Shown: piece after piece, positions 15,352 to 46,096 of the stretch | Layout of the letters: each line of letters starts with the position of its first letter | How positions within the stretch are numbered: position 1 is the stretch's first letter | From: Isosphaeraceae bacterium EP7 | GTDB taxonomy: Bacteria > Planctomycetota > Planctomycetia > Isosphaerales > Isosphaeraceae | DNA: 64,000 nt | Assembly: GCA_038400315.1 (NCBI GenBank) | Contig: CP151667.1 | Span: 3,359,174 to 3,423,173, forward strand | Direction: 5' to 3' | Notes under the pieces: model-generated | What the model saw: the letters and a program-made list of their open reading frames with translations, nothing else | Database searches by the model: none | What the model was told of the DNA's origin: nothing | Translations under genes and position numbers: made by a program

Positions 15352-16425
15352 TCAGAATGCGTCGGAGCTGACGATCTCTCCGCCGTTTCGGCTGCCGATG
15401 GCGGCGTAGGAGGCGCGATTGATGGAGCTCTTGAGGAAGCGGACGGATCCGTCGGCGAAGGTGAAGTTGGCCCCGCCCGGGTGGCGGCTCTTGAAGCCTC
15501 GCGCGGCGTAGCTGTAGCGACAGGTCCAGTCGACCGAGTTGTAGTTGCCGACGCAGGCGTCGTAGCGAGCGTTGCTCTTCCAGTTGAGCGGGATGGTGAC
15601 GCCGGCCCCGCCGCCGGTGAATCCCCAGAATTCGTTGTTGGCGTCCTCGTCGGGGAGACCCTCGCCGTAGAGGATGGTGTTGCTGGTGCCGTCGGTGACC
15701 GAGGCCAGCGAGGCGATGCCGCCGGTGGAGTAGTCGGAGAATCCGCGCATCGATCCGCTGTTGTTGCTGGTGCCCCACCAGCCGTTGTAGCCGATGCGCG
15801 GGTTGACGCCGGCGCTGCTGGCGTTGGGTGTTTCCCAGGGATTGGTGGTGCCGACGAGGGTCTCGATGGCGTAGTTGTCGCCGAAACTCATCAGGTAGTT
15901 GGAGACGGGGACGAGCTGGGTGCCCGTGCCGCCGACCGGGGTGTTCGGGGGATAGGGGGGCGTGACGGTGGTGACGGTGCCGCCGGGCCCGCCGTAGGGG
16001 ACGAAGCCGACGGGGCTCTGGCCCTGGCCGTCGGAGGGACACAGGAAGGCGGCGACGGAGGTGTACCAGACGGTGGCCATGGCCGGGCCGCTCAGGTTGT
16101 TGAGGATGCTGAAGTTGATGGCGTTGTACTGGTTATTGGCCTCCATCTGCGGCAGGATCATCGCCCGCCAGGTCAGGCCATTGCTGGTGAAGTTGAAGCC
16201 CCCGTTGGTGGCCCCCGGGGGGAAGAGGTCGGTCTGGCTGATGTAAGTGTGCGTGGCCAGGCCCAACTGCTTCATGTTGTTGGTGCACTGGATGCGCCTG
16301 GCGGCCTCTCGTGCGCTCTGCACGGCGGGCAGGAGCAGCGCGATGAGCACCGCGATGATCGAGATGACCACCAAAAGCTCGATGAGGGTGAAGCCGGCCT
16401 TGGGCGATTTGCGACGGAATTGCAT
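15352..16425 (-). CDS. DUF1559 pilin-like protein, copy 1
   Basis: 357 residues from the ATG at 16425 (GGAG upstream). The N-terminus has the type IV prepilin cleavage and methylation motif: a short basic leader, G-FTLIE and a long hydrophobic helix, followed by the conserved QSAREAARR segment. The C-terminus has the family's HPGGANF.FADGSVRFL motif. DUF1559 proteins are among the most expanded families in planctomycetes and are thought to form pseudopilin-like surface structures. It is almost identical in sequence and length to copy 2 at 17087-18160. Expected export uses the type II secretion/prepilin peptidase route. Confidence 0.9.
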   Translation of the reverse strand: MQFRRKSPKAGFTLIELLVVISIIAVLIALLLPAVQSAREAARRIQCTNNMKQLGLATHTYISQTDLFPPGATNGGFNFTSNGLTWRAMILPQMEANNQYNAINFSILNNLSGPAMATVWYTSVAAFLCPSDGQGQSPVGFVPYGGPGGTVTTVTPPYPPNTPVGGTGTQLVPVSNYLMSFGDNYAIETLVGTTNPWETPNASSAGVNPRIGYNGWWGTSNNSGSMRGFSDYSTGGIASLASVTDGTSNTILYGEGLPDEDANNEFWGFTGGGAGVTIPLNWKSNARYDACVGNYNSVDWTCRYSYAARGFKSRHPGGANFTFADGSVRFLKSSINRASYAAIGSRNGGEIVSSDAF

Positions 16426-17086: not shown

Positions 17087-18160
17087 TCAGAATGCGTCGG
17101 AGCTGACGATCTCTCCGCCGTTCCGGCTGCCGATGGCGGCATAGGAGGCGCGATTGATGGAGCTCTTGAGGAAGCGGACGGATCCGTCGGCGAAGGTGAA
17201 GTTGGCCCCGCCCGGGTGGCGGCTCTTGAAGCCTCGCGCGGCGTAGCTGTAGCGACAGGTCCAGTCGACGGAATTCCAGTTGCCCACGCAGGCCTCGTTG
17301 CGGCCGTTCGTCTTCCAGTTGAGCGGGATGGTCACGCCGGCGGAGCCGCCGGTGAAGCCCCACATCTCATTGTTGGCGTCCTCGTCGGGGAGACCCTCGC
17401 CGTAGAGGACGGTGTTGCTCGTGCCGTCGGTGACCGAGGCCATCGTCGCGGTGCCGCCGGTCGTGTAGTCGGAGAAGCCCCGCATGGACCCCGAGTTGCT
17501 GGTCGTGCCCCAATATCCGTTGTAGCCGATGCGCGGGTTGACGCCGGCGCTGCTGGCGTTGGGTGTTTCCCAGGGATTGGTGGTGCCGACGAGGGTCTCG
17601 ACGGCGTAATTGTCGCCGAAACTCATCAGGTAGTTGGAAACCGGCATCAGCTGGACGCCCGTGCTGCCGACCGGAGTGTTGGGGGGGAAGGGGGGCGTGA
17701 TGACGCCCATGGACCCATTAGGACCGCCGTAGGCGGCGAAGCCGACGGGGCTCTGGCCCTGGCCGTCGGAGGGACACAGGAAGGCGGCGATCGAGGTGTA
17801 CCAGACGGTGGCCATGGCCGGAGCGGCCAGGGCGTTGGTGATGCTGAAGTTGATGGCGTTGTACTGGTTATTGGCCTCCATCTGCGGCAGGATCATCGCC
17901 CGCCAGGTCAGGGCATTGCCGGTGTTCCCGAAGCCGTCCTTGATGGCGCCCGGGGGGAACAGGTCGCATTGGCTGATGTAAGTGTGCGTGGCCAGGCCCA
18001 TCTGCTTCATGTTGTTGGTGCACTGGATGCGCCTGGCGGCCTCTCGTGCGCTCTGCACGGCGGGCAGGAGCAGCGCGATGAGCACCGCGATGATCGAGAT
18101 GACCACCAAAAGCTCGATGAGGGTGAAGCCAGGCCTGGACGACGTGCGACGAAGGGGCAT
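17087..18160 (-). CDS. DUF1559 pilin-like protein, copy 2
   Basis: 357 residues from the ATG at 18160, the same length as copy 1. The prepilin leader (SRPGFTLIE), the hydrophobic helix, the AREAARR segment and the C-terminal HPGG...FADGSVRFL block are all present. Long stretches of DNA at both ends are identical to copy 1, so duplication was recent or the copies undergo gene conversion; the differences cluster in the middle of the protein. Unlike copy 1 it has no lipoprotein partner and ends at its own terminator. It has its own copy of the TTGACC/ATAAAT promoter. Confidence 0.9.
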   Translation of the reverse strand: MPLRRTSSRPGFTLIELLVVISIIAVLIALLLPAVQSAREAARRIQCTNNMKQMGLATHTYISQCDLFPPGAIKDGFGNTGNALTWRAMILPQMEANNQYNAINFSITNALAAPAMATVWYTSIAAFLCPSDGQGQSPVGFAAYGGPNGSMGVITPPFPPNTPVGSTGVQLMPVSNYLMSFGDNYAVETLVGTTNPWETPNASSAGVNPRIGYNGYWGTTSNSGSMRGFSDYTTGGTATMASVTDGTSNTVLYGEGLPDEDANNEMWGFTGGSAGVTIPLNWKTNGRNEACVGNWNSVDWTCRYSYAARGFKSRHPGGANFTFADGSVRFLKSSINRASYAAIGSRNGGEIVSSDAF

Positions 18161-30475: not shown

Positions 30476-30819
30476 CGCGTAGCCGCCTCCGGACCATGGG
30501 GGGGCGTTCTTCCGCAAAGGGTTGCCGCCGCCAGGACGGATTATATCGGACAGAAGGAGGGTGCGGCAATCGCCATGCCACAACCCGGGTGATGCAGGCC
30601 GGATCGGACTCGCCATGCCCCGAATCCGGTCGTCACCGTAACTCCTTTACCATCCCCACCCTGAATGAATAGACTCGGGACACCGGCCGCCCGACTGGCC
30701 CCGACACCTGGGACTCGATGCTGAGAGCTTTGTTCGACAAAAATTCGACGAGACAGGTGAGGTCCGCGGCGGATCGAGGTCGGCGGTCCATCCATTTCTT
30801 GCCAACGGGGGACGCGGGA

Positions 30820-31800
30820 ATGCGCCCGGAGAGTTGCTTCGCCCTGTTTTCGGCCCTGATCCTGGCGGCAACCGCCCACGGGCAGGCGCCGAAGCGAGAT
30901 TATCGGGCCGACATGCGCGCCTTCGTGGCTGCAATCAGCCTGAAGGCCAAGGCGCAAACTCCGGGGTTCCTGGTCGTGCCGCAGGGGGGCCTGGAGCTGT
31001 TGACCGAGGATGCCGAGCCGGACGGCAAGCTGGCGGCCGCCTACCTGGGTGCCATCGACGGCGTCGGTCAGGAGGAGGTTTTCTACGGTTTTGAGAACGT
31101 GGACGACCGCAAGACGCCAAGGCCGGAGTCTGAGGCCTTTCTGAAACTCCTGGACGTGGCGAAGAAGGCCGGCAAGGGTGTGCTGGTGACCGACTACGCC
31201 ACGAAGAGGCCCTTGGTCGATGACGCCTACGCCCGCAACAAGGCCGCCGGACTCGTCGGGTTCGTGGCCGACCGTCGGGGCCTGGACAGGATCCCGCGTT
31301 ATCCGGCCAAGCCGCCGGGCGTGAACACAGCCGACGTCCGGTCCTTCGCCGACGTGAAGAACTTCCTCTACCTGATCGACGGCGGCCGGTTCGAGACGCT
31401 CGCCAACTACCTGGGGGCGATGGCGAGGACCGACCACGACTTACTTATCATCGACCCGTTCTCGGGCGACTGGGCGCCCACCGCGGCCGACATCGACCGG
31501 CTGAAGCGCAAGCCGGGCGGTGGTCGTCGGCTCGTGCTCTGCTACCTCAGCATTGGCGAGGCCGAGGACTATCGCCCCTACTGGAAGCCCGCCTGGACCA
31601 AGGCCCCGCCGCCGTTCCTGGGCCCCGAAAACCCCGACTGGAAGGGGAACTTCTCCGTCCGTTACTGGGATTCCGCCTGGCGGTCGATCATCCTCGACGG
31701 CCCCGGCTCGCCCCTCGGACGCATCCTGGCGGCCGGCTTCGACGGGGTCTATCTCGACAAGGTCGACGAGTATGGCTGGTTCGAGGACCACCCCGAGTAA
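30820..31800 (+). CDS. TM1410-like secreted protein (endo alpha-1,4-polygalactosaminidase-like)
   Basis: 326 residues from the ATG at 30820, which opens a signal peptide (CFALFSALILAATAHG). The fold is a TIM barrel of the TM1410/GH114 type: DLLIIDPF..., then LVLCYLSIGEAEDYRPYW, then a W..I(I/L)..R..G..FDGVYLDKVDEY motif. The Glu in SIGEAE and the Asp in YLDKVD are the candidate catalytic residues. The family includes proteins that cleave galactosaminogalactan-like polymers; older annotation as an extracellular cysteinyl-tRNA synthetase homologue is misleading. It converges on ftsY with a 12-base gap. Confidence 0.75.
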   Translation: MRPESCFALFSALILAATAHGQAPKRDYRADMRAFVAAISLKAKAQTPGFLVVPQGGLELLTEDAEPDGKLAAAYLGAIDGVGQEEVFYGFENVDDRKTPRPESEAFLKLLDVAKKAGKGVLVTDYATKRPLVDDAYARNKAAGLVGFVADRRGLDRIPRYPAKPPGVNTADVRSFADVKNFLYLIDGGRFETLANYLGAMARTDHDLLIIDPFSGDWAPTAADIDRLKRKPGGGRRLVLCYLSIGEAEDYRPYWKPAWTKAPPPFLGPENPDWKGNFSVRYWDSAWRSIILDGPGSPLGRILAAGFDGVYLDKVDEYGWFEDHPE

Positions 31801-31812
31801 GGCCAGGTCAGA

Positions 31813-32718
31813 TCAAGTGAAGAGGGATTCGACGAAGTCGTCGGCGTCGAACGGCTGGAGGTCGTCGATTCCCTCGCCCACCCCGATGAACTTGACGGGC
31901 AGGTTCAGGATCTGGCGGATGGCGACGACGACCCCTCCCTTGGCGGTGCCGTCGAGCTTGGTCAGGATCACGCCCGTGCAGCCGATGCTCTTGGTGAAAG
32001 CCTCGGCCTGGCGGATGGCGTTCTGGCCGTTGGTGGCGTCAAGCACGAGCAGCGTCTCGTGGGGGGCGCCACCGATTTTGCGGCGGACCACGCCGTTGAC
32101 CTTCTCCAGCTCGCGCATCAGGTGCGACTGCGTGTGCAGCCGGCCTGCGGTGTCGACAATCAAGACATCCACCTCGCGAGCCAGGGCACGGTCGCACGCG
32201 TCGTGCGCCACGCTCGCGGGATCGGCCCCGGGGGCTCCGCGGACGATCTCGGAGCCCGAGCGTTCGGCCCAGATGGCGAGCTGGTCGGCCGCGGCGGCGC
32301 GGAAGGTGTCGCAGGCGGCGAGCAAGACAGACTTGCCCTCCCCCTTGACCCGCTGGGCCAGCTTGGCGATCGAGGTCGTCTTGCCCGACCCGTTGACCCC
32401 CGCGATGAGGTAGACCGTCGGCTTTTTTGGTGCGACGGCTAGGGTCCCGGGCCTGGGGTCGGCGAGCAGGGCCTTCAGGCTCCCCTTGACCAGCGTGATC
32501 AGCTCCTCGTCGGCGGTCTTGCCGGCGTAGGCCTCGCGCACCTCGTCGACGATCTTGGCGGTAGCCTTCACGCCGACGTCGGCCTGGATGAGCCGGGCCT
32601 CGAGCGCATCGAGGAACGACTGGTCGACCGTCCGGCCGAACCACGAGCGGACGTCGAAGAGCTTGGCGGTCCTGGAGAGCCCCTGGCGGAGTCGGTCGAG
32701 CAGGCGTTTCGCGGCCAT
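31813..32718 (-). CDS. ftsY: Signal recognition particle receptor FtsY
   Basis: 301 residues: only the NG domain, without the long acidic A domain of enterobacterial FtsY. The SRP-GTPase motifs are complete: G1 GVNGSGKTT (107-115), the DTFRAAA segment (137-143), G3 DTAGR (189-193), G4 TKLD (253-256) and the closing GVGEG...DLQPF. It docks ribosome-SRP complexes at the inner membrane for cotranslational insertion. The gene is 123 bases downstream of the PHP gene and on the same strand. Confidence 0.95.
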   Translation of the reverse strand: MAAKRLLDRLRQGLSRTAKLFDVRSWFGRTVDQSFLDALEARLIQADVGVKATAKIVDEVREAYAGKTADEELITLVKGSLKALLADPRPGTLAVAPKKPTVYLIAGVNGSGKTTSIAKLAQRVKGEGKSVLLAACDTFRAAAADQLAIWAERSGSEIVRGAPGADPASVAHDACDRALAREVDVLIVDTAGRLHTQSHLMRELEKVNGVVRRKIGGAPHETLLVLDATNGQNAIRQAEAFTKSIGCTGVILTKLDGTAKGGVVVAIRQILNLPVKFIGVGEGIDDLQPFDADDFVESLFT

Positions 32719-35040: not shown

Positions 35041-36039
35041 TCAGCGACGGCGCCATAACACCAGCGCCACGACCAGGACCGCGACACCAAGGCCGATCGA
35101 AACGCGAGAGGGCGTCACAACTCCCTCCTCGGGAATCGTCACCCGGATTGCCTCGGTCGTCGTGTTCGCGATCGGGGGCGGCGCCGGCGGCGAGGCGACC
35201 GGCCGTGGCTTGCCCTTAACCTCGTATTGCTTGTTCGTCAGCGTGGCGACGACATCGGCGCCGGGATGATTGGCAGGCCAGAAGGTCGAGCGGGGATACT
35301 CCTGATCGAAGGCGATCCGCTTCACCGTGAGCTTCTGGCGAAGCGTCGCCTCGTTAGGCGTGCCGCGACCCACATGGGTCGCCCTCTCGGACTTGATCGG
35401 GAATGGCCGGCTTCGGACCTGGTCAAGCTCCGTCGCGACCCATGTCGACAGCGGCGGCTTGCCGTTGTACTCGCTCACGCCGTCGAAAATCTCGACCTTC
35501 AACGGAACCGACATTGCCTTGTCGAGGTGGAAGACGATTTGCTTCTTCGCGCGATTCCACGGGACGTCGCGAAACAGGAAGATTTCGCATTCGCGGGCGA
35601 GAACTCGGCCCTCGCCCACATACTCCGCCCTGGGCATCGCCTCATGCAGCGGGACGGCTCCGAGGTAGGAGTATCGGAGGGGAACGGGGCGGACGGTCCA
35701 GGCCCCTCGGTCCTCGACGGAGAAGGATTTCTTGATGACGATCTGACGCTCGAGCGCCAGGTCGTCCTTGTCGTAATTCACGTTGGCTCAACGATCACCA
35801 TCGCAGTACGAGGTCGAGCGGCCCGTCTTCCCGTCGGTCTCATGCGTCCGGTCGTCGAGCATCCTCTGCCCGGCGGCGGTCTCGACGTATCGGGCCTCGA
35901 TCCGTTGAATCCTCGATTGGTCAGCCGGGACGATCGAATCGGGGATCACCTGCTCGGTGAGGGCGTCGACCTCCACGGACATCCAACTCTCCGAGGCGAC
36001 CTTGAGCCGCTCGGCCGCCTGAGTCATGCGATCCGGCAT
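35041..36039 (-). pseudogene. C-terminally membrane-anchored protein interrupted by an in-frame TGA
   Basis: From the ATG at 36039 (GGAG upstream) the frame reads 83 codons to a TGA at 35788-35790. It then continues in the same frame for another 249 codons to 35041 with the same coding character. The break is between ...SYCDGDR and ANVNYDKDD. The protein would be 332 residues: a mostly beta soluble domain, a Pro-rich linker and one C-terminal transmembrane helix with an RRR end. A GTG at 35781 could restart translation but would give a protein without its N-terminal quarter. Explanations: nonsense mutation (most likely), sequencing error, or readthrough/selenocysteine. Confidence 0.65.
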
Positions 36040-36199
36040 CGGGGAGGCTCCGAACTGTGAGGGGTGACCCGCGGGGCGTGGGAATTTTCCGGGGCGAACG
36101 CCAACGTCCGAGTGATCGTCTCGCGGACGCGCCAAGGGCGTTGGAGAAGTCGCGCGTCTCCATCGTGGGACCTCATCGGCCCACCAACCTTCGATATCC

Positions 36200-37219
36200 T
36201 TATGGGACGTCCGAGATCACCTCTCCCCCATCGCGGGTTCCGAGGCTTCGCCAGATCGCCGGGTCGATCGCCGAGCCGTACCAATGCACGGCTCCGTCGG
36301 CGGTCAGCGCATTGACCCCGCCCGGATGACGACTCCGGGCCCCGAACACACCTGCTCCGAAGAACCCATCATATCCGTAATCGGGGATCGGACTGTTCGG
36401 CGGGGTTGCGACGAAGAAGGTCGTGAAGATGGCGCCCGAGATCAGCCAGTTGCTCCCGGCGTCGAGCCGCGCACGCGACGTTTCAACCAACCGAGAGCAG
36501 ACGGCAACCCAGCCGTCGGCGCTCCTCGGGGTCGGATTACTCTGTCTGTAAACCCAATCTCTGGATGAGGAATAAGTGCCGCCATGGCCCGAGCCGATGG
36601 GCTTCTCGGAGAATGCCAGGGTGTGCGAGAGGCCGTCACGGAAGCTAGACAGGCGATTCGGCCGCCCCCAGAAGAACGCCCCGACGTCATCACCCACGCA
36701 GCCGTGGCACGCCCCGGCGTTTGCCCGATAGCCATTCGCCCCACCATCGTCGCCGGATCTCGGGTCGGAGGGGCAGAGGAAAGTGCCCACGGAGAGTGCT
36801 ATCACCGTCGAGTTTCCGGGATCGATGGCAATGATACCGGAAGATGTTTCGAGATTCGCCGTATAGCTGATTCCCAGGGAAAAGTTGATTGCGTTATAAA
36901 TTCCCCCTTGTTCCAGAAAAGGGAGGAGCAGGGATTGCGGCGAGAAATACGTAACTCGATGCGGAGACCCGGCCGCATCGCCGGTCGAGGTCGAGGGGGG
37001 GACCGCATCCCACGAGTCGATATAGGAGTGAAGGGCCAGGCCCAACTGCCTGAGGTTATTGGAGCACGCGACACGCCTGGCCGATTCGCGGGCCGACTGA
37101 ACCGCCGGCAAGGTAAGCCCCACGAGCAGGCCGATGACGCCGAGGACGACCAGCAGTTCGATCAGGGTGAACCCTCGGAGGGGTTCCGGCGCGGCCCTTC
37201 GTGTCGAAGAGTTGCTCAT
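36200..37219 (-). CDS. DUF1559 pilin-like protein, copy 3 (divergent)
   Basis: 339 residues from the ATG at 37219. The prepilin motif (LRGFTLIELLVVLG), the QSARESARR segment, the LCPSD motif and the C-terminal RHPGGVN.L.ADGAVHWYG block mark the family. It is shorter and much more divergent than the two copies at 15-18 kb, has extra cysteines (ACHGCVG) and does not share their promoter sequence. No lipoprotein partner follows. It is expected at the cell surface or in pseudopilus-like fibres. Confidence 0.88.
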   Translation of the reverse strand: MSNSSTRRAAPEPLRGFTLIELLVVLGVIGLLVGLTLPAVQSARESARRVACSNNLRQLGLALHSYIDSWDAVPPSTSTGDAAGSPHRVTYFSPQSLLLPFLEQGGIYNAINFSLGISYTANLETSSGIIAIDPGNSTVIALSVGTFLCPSDPRSGDDGGANGYRANAGACHGCVGDDVGAFFWGRPNRLSSFRDGLSHTLAFSEKPIGSGHGGTYSSSRDWVYRQSNPTPRSADGWVAVCSRLVETSRARLDAGSNWLISGAIFTTFFVATPPNSPIPDYGYDGFFGAGVFGARSRHPGGVNALTADGAVHWYGSAIDPAIWRSLGTRDGGEVISDVP

Positions 37220-44420: not shown

Positions 44421-44570
44421 ACTAAAAGCCTGTTGGGAAAGCGTGACCTAGCCTTCTGGAATGGACACACGAATCGCGTATCCGAGTGACCTGACCCACG
44501 CCGAGTGGGCCCAGGTCTGCCGCGTTATCCCCTCACCCAAGCCGGGCGGGCGGCCCGCCAAGCACGACCG

Positions 44571-44645
44571 GCGGGACATCGTCAACGCCCTACTGGCGGG
44601 ACATCGTCAACGCCCTACTGGCGGGACATCGTCAACGCCCTGCTG
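44571..44645 (+). repeat. Three tandem copies of a 25-bp unit
   Basis: Units 44571-44595 and 44596-44620 are identical; 44621-44645 differs at one base. One unit is native to the transposase gene; the two additional copies add 50 bases and break the frame. The clean copies point to a recent slippage or replication event. Confidence 0.9.
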
Positions 44646-44920
44646 TATGTCGCGCGCACCGGCTGCCAGTGGCGCGCGATCCCGCACGACCTGCCCCCCT
44701 GGGCCACCGCGTACTGGTACTTCCGCATCTGGAAGGCCGACGGCACCCTCGACCGCCTGATGGACCTGCTCCGAGGCGACCTGCGCCAGGCCCACGGCCG
44801 GCCGCGCCAGCCGTCGGCGGCCATCCTCGACAGCCAGTCGGTCAAGACGACGGAAAAAGCGACTGTGTTCCGCGTCAAGTCCCGAAGGCCCGTTTTGATC
44901 GCGAGATCGTGAACTGACCT

Positions 44921-46096
<1,176 letters not shown>

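Follow-up and report, generated by a model that had tools for sequence, protein, structure and literature searches.

The window analysed here, a stretch of 64,000 nucleotides from the genome of Isosphaeraceae bacterium EP7, contains on its minus strand a gene interrupted by a single internal stop codon (Table 1). The initial annotation, which gave no strand, had reported that an in-frame TGA at codon 84 splits this gene, and translation of the minus strand confirmed it; the closing stop of the gene is likewise TGA. The GC content at codon positions 1/2/3 is 0.64/0.48/0.83 before the internal stop and 0.65/0.46/0.81 after it, and alignments with homologues run across the stop. The similar codon-position GC and the homologues aligning across the stop indicate a single gene split by TGA, not a chance arrangement, and bear out the earlier observation that frame and codon bias are the same on both sides. 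No other lesion was seen over the 332 codons, as the initial annotation had also stated. The part after the stop ends in a hydrophobic stretch followed by WRRR, and the product would be an uncharacterised, probably membrane-anchored protein.

Table 1. Features of the disrupted gene and its upstream neighbour. Positions are those of the window.
Feature	Position	Strand	Evidence and remarks
Disrupted gene, entire frame from ATG to closing TGA	35041..36039	minus	333 codons including the internal and the terminal TGA; 21 homologues align
In-frame TGA, codon 84	35788..35790	minus	translation and homologue alignment
N-terminal part, 83 codons ahead of the stop	35791..36039	minus	12 of 14 conserved residues kept
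Part after the stop, 248 codons and terminal TGA	35041..35787	minus	48 of 59 conserved residues kept
Hairpin	35737..35766	minus	22 to 51 bases downstream of the TGA; does not exceed the gene background in strength; apical loop UCGA
DUF1559 (SBP_bac_10) gene with N-terminal methylation motif	36200..37219	minus	profile positions 1-267 of 268; directly upstream

The position of the DUF1559 gene is shared with other members of the family. In seven of the nine neighbourhoods fetched, the nearest upstream ORF of at least 300 codons on the same strand is a DUF1559 gene, as it is in the window. The eighth neighbourhood (L117) has two copies, with a DUF1559 gene ahead of the second but not next to the first, and in the ninth (L123) there was no DUF1559 gene among the ORFs picked; the test covered only ORFs picked by codon composition. 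DUF1559 and a protein with a hydrophobic C-terminal end, possibly LolA-like, form a recurrent, uncharacterised pair in the family (L116, L118–L122, L124 and window positions 35041–37219). Excerpts of one study (PMC4807772) describe the DUF1559 domain as seemingly confined to the PVC superphylum.

Several features elsewhere in the window are of separate interest. A fragment of an IS4/5-type transposase (44461–44912) contains a 25-base unit repeated three times head to tail at 44570–44644, which probably shifts the transposase frame, and an IS110-type transposase at 44921–45757 adjoins it. A GH114-like gene (30718–31800) matches only positions 19–118 of the 231 in the Pfam profile, at C-terminal residues 242–352 of 360, and may be truncated just before an ftsY-like gene at 31813–32718. 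Two TAA stops 1735 bases apart (16244–16246 and 17979–17981) have the same flanking open lengths, 82 and 62 codons, and suggest a tandem duplication. A composition scan of the window for other same-frame stops gave 21 places, too unspecific a result to act as a control.

Homologues of the disrupted gene were sought in 45 genomes of the order, all of which belong to one taxonomic family and among which the genus is represented by the window's genome only. A match to the protein family was found in 21 of the 45, weak and partial ones included; 22 matches of at least 118 bits were found in 18 genomes, counting the window's. The nearest homologue is ca. 40% identical. Full-length homologues were found solely in the window's own taxonomic family – in a class-wide draw of 297 genomes, with seven first-look candidates scored per genome, the matches outside it were weak, covered only part of the profile and scored at most 34 bits, and none started before profile position 127. 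A scan of genome contigs, which may not include the window's genome or those very close to it, found no relatives. Only one match was present in the window's genome itself, so no second, possibly compensating copy was found there. The patchy distribution implies that the family is probably dispensable.

A conserved region is common to the proteins of this family, and the majority finish with a hydrophobic stretch and then basic residues. Weak matches to LolA_like (PF17131) in three of 17 members (best E 0.0057) are a point of likeness to LolA_like proteins, from which the family differs in its C-terminal hydrophobic end and in the window's protein itself – no Pfam family was reported for it, even with the limit at E 10, or for either half. 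A LolA-like fold is possible on this sequence evidence, as a lead and not a result. The single NCBIfam match of the window's protein, at its C-terminal end, was to a MYXO-CTERM sorting domain and fell below the cut-off (E 3.5). Weak matches to sorting signals occur in some other members. A single-sequence structure prediction of the window's protein had a mean pLDDT of 35.6.

Ten of the 21 homologues carry Cys at the site of codon 84 and four carry Ser; Ala and Gly are each found in two, and Tyr, Phe and Val in one apiece. These counts omit eight weak, partial profile matches (78.8 bits or less) that start at profile position 171 or beyond and fall short of the site. All 21 have a sense codon here and none has a stop. 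Seven of the codons are TGC and three are TGT, each one step from TGA, and from these residues and codons the simplest change is one substitution from TGC or TGT. The Cys-to-stop change proposed earlier is thus supported, Cys being the most frequent residue at the site, and neither Arg nor Gln, set beforehand as a refuting result, was seen among the 21. With seven different residues across the homologues, this position is not an invariant redox residue. In the gene tree, the nodes beside the disrupted gene have low support (51 and 38), which leaves the ancestral residue a probable one that rests on the residue counts. The terminal branch of the disrupted gene is ordinary, with a length of 1.05 (14th shortest of 22).

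Of 73 conserved residues, the window's protein retains 60, which is among the better values in the family – the range for the other 21 members, counted in the same way, is 56 to 90%. Since both halves are well conserved, the lesion is either young or a base-call error. Of the 2979 single substitutions possible in the gene, 103 would make a stop. Thirty neutral substitutions would leave the gene with no further stop in 35% of cases when stops alone are counted, and with no further lesion in 3% when 0.08 frameshifts per substitution are assumed. Under this assumed frameshift rate the lesion, if real, is probably less than ca. 3% of neutral divergence old, and the conservation of both halves and the lack of another visible lesion favour the recent event suggested in the initial annotation. 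Because there is no second lesion, decay is without independent proof, and a single site has to carry both the age of the lesion and the question of whether the base is real. Stops are also found in two homologues. In that of G019 (L004), a TAG stands five codons ahead of the terminal stop; in that of G029 (L014/L098), the open frame stops short of the hydrophobic end, and the profile match includes both a TGA and a TAA.

The best explanation for the locus, and a fairly likely one on comparative sequence grounds, is that one recent nonsense substitution, at codon 84, disabled an uncharacterised gene that is probably dispensable. The substitution would most probably have turned a Cys codon (TGC or TGT) into TGA. 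Ribosomes would then halt at codon 84 and release a fragment of 83 residues, without the hydrophobic C-terminal end and without the larger part of the conserved domain. The gene, as a member of a patchy and so probably dispensable family, would be at the start of its decay. It resembles bacterial pseudogenes with a single nonsense mutation in having one in-frame stop in a conserved gene of patchy distribution, a sense codon in all homologues, and no stop-decoding machinery found; it differs from them in that a second lesion is not yet present.

The main rival, an error of base calling or assembly, which would mean that the gene is intact in the cell and that the TGA exists only in the record, is unlikely, though not negligibly so. 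Such an error would agree with the TGA as the sole lesion, with halves as conserved as in other members, and with the ordinary terminal branch. However, the assembly looks good (7.2 Mb in 5 contigs, 99.89% complete), and the error would need to be a substitution and not an indel. Indels are the commoner error in long reads.

Downstream of the TGA, the CUGGCG/CGUCAG inverted repeat noted in the initial annotation is present, 27 bases after the stop. The stretch from the TGA, with the outer pairs of the hairpin, has a folding energy of −19.8 kcal/mol (z −2.79), matched or bettered by 3 of 200 shuffles. This comparison with shuffles favours a structure, but the stretch is ordinary against real coding sequence – 156 of 312 overlapping stretches of equal length from the same gene (the hairpin stretch itself included) and 1701 of 2864 stretches from seven genes of the window reach the same or greater stability. 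The stability of the hairpin is therefore not distinctive, and a specially strong hairpin was rejected after the background scan. The apical loop lies 34 bases from the TGA, a spacing allowed for bacterial SECIS elements, and as a small loop containing a G it has a SECIS-like character, on a stem whose stability is only ordinary for the gene. A stricter rule for SECIS elements places the G within the first two bases of the loop; in UCGA it is third, and the loop would fail. Some bacterial elements depart from the model, according to excerpts of PMC12013277.

The hairpin could also bear on readthrough without selenocysteine, in which a near-cognate tRNA-Trp or tRNA-Cys at UGA would allow some full-length protein to be made, perhaps as a form of regulation. 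The constraint still apparent on both sides of the stop would fit this, as would a stem-loop 21 bases downstream. However, the stem-loop is ordinary for the gene, none of the 21 homologues has a stop at the site, and no tRNA with a UCA anticodon was found among the 54 tRNA matches in the window's genome, all of which were read with ARAGORN. Readthrough of this kind is improbable, and it is quite doubtful that low, perhaps regulated decoding of UGA supplies a little full-length membrane-anchored protein and has in this way kept both halves conserved. The earlier suggestion that the stop is read through gained no positive evidence. A suppressor tRNA or a reassignment of UGA to Trp was rejected, given the lack of a UCA anticodon in the 54 tRNAs and a tRNA-Trp with the anticodon CCA.

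The tRNA genes of this genome include four (Cys, Tyr, Ser, Ser) that lie 3–4 bases apart at C1:5595668–5596003 (L072), two of them low-scoring. A low-scoring tRNA-Ile(AAT) is found near this cluster at 5597349 (L087), and a second tRNA-Ile(AAT) at 6894638. The clustered genes are possibly a mobile tRNA array.

The initial annotation had raised selenocysteine at codon 84, and no genes for it were found in the genome. No protein of the window's genome scores over the cut-off for SelA (best 38 bits, cut-off 268), SelB (best 157 bits, cut-off 242) or SelD (best 60 bits, cut-off 125). The best SelA match is closest to a DgaE-like lyase, the best SelB match is EF-Tu, and the best SelD match is closest to ThiL (thiamine-phosphate kinase). 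The best match to the tRNA-Sec model scores 47.4 bits against a gathering score of 47 and is read by ARAGORN as tRNA-Ser(GCT), whereas for the tRNA-Sec of G016 the same program gave SeC (tca). The absence of a selenocysteine system, which had been set beforehand as a refuting result, is thus what was seen in the window's genome.

The same searches found these genes in many relatives. Among 45 genomes of the same taxonomic family, taken as a positive control, SelA was over the cut-off in 30 and SelB in 30; 28 have both, and 13, some of them incomplete, have neither. Calls of tRNA-Sec rested on score, length and anticodon. Matches of 94–96 bases and 62 to 79.5 bits, resembling true tRNA-Sec, were found in 28 of the 45 genomes (that of G016 alone was checked with ARAGORN). 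The cut-off of the tRNA-Sec model was passed by 38 of the 45 and also by 5 of 14 control genomes, so passing it is not in itself proof of tRNA-Sec. SelA or SelB is over the cut-off in 13 of the 17 other genomes with homologues of the disrupted gene. These 13 genomes hold 17 homologues, including all ten with Cys at the site, and none of them has TGA there.

The locus has some likeness to bacterial selenoprotein genes. The TGA aligns with Cys in 10 of 21 homologues and is near another Cys, a stem-loop with a G in its small loop follows, and relatives own Sec genes. One published selenoprotein filter, as given in excerpts of PMC1088965, required more than 50% TGA/Cys pairs, and complete Sec gene sets are reported in Isosphaera pallida and Gemmata obscuriglobus in excerpts of PMC4807772. 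The locus differs from such genes in the lack of SelA, SelB, SelD or tRNA-Sec found in the genome, the lack of a TGA in any homologue, a residue that varies among Cys, Ser, Ala, Gly, Phe, Tyr and Val, and a hairpin of ordinary strength with its G in the third place. The reading of this TGA as selenocysteine by a bacterial Sec system is extremely improbable. It is the missing machinery that decides the question, not the hairpin; to the extent that the assembly is complete, selenocysteine is ruled out, and a Sec system outside the assembled contigs is its only escape. It is just as improbable that the TGA is a fossil, read as selenocysteine in an ancestor that later lost the system and left the stop behind – most genomes of the family are Sec-positive and that of the window has neither SelA nor SelB over the cut-off, but no homologue from a Sec-positive genome has TGA at the site, and more lesions would be expected unless the loss was very recent.

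With no machinery found to read the stop as selenocysteine, the locus is most likely a gene of an ordinary kind that broke recently (or an error of sequencing), and its use is as a clean negative case for selenoprotein calls. A TGA/Cys site with a downstream hairpin mimics a selenoprotein gene, and it takes a check of the Sec machinery, tRNA set and homologues to tell the two apart. Of more general interest than the stop itself is the patchy presence of Sec genes in this bacterial family. In excerpts of an earlier survey (PMC1794560), the Sec-decoding trait was found in 21.5% of the bacterial genomes then sequenced, and most organisms were suggested to have lost it. The patchiness across the present family likewise suggests repeated loss.
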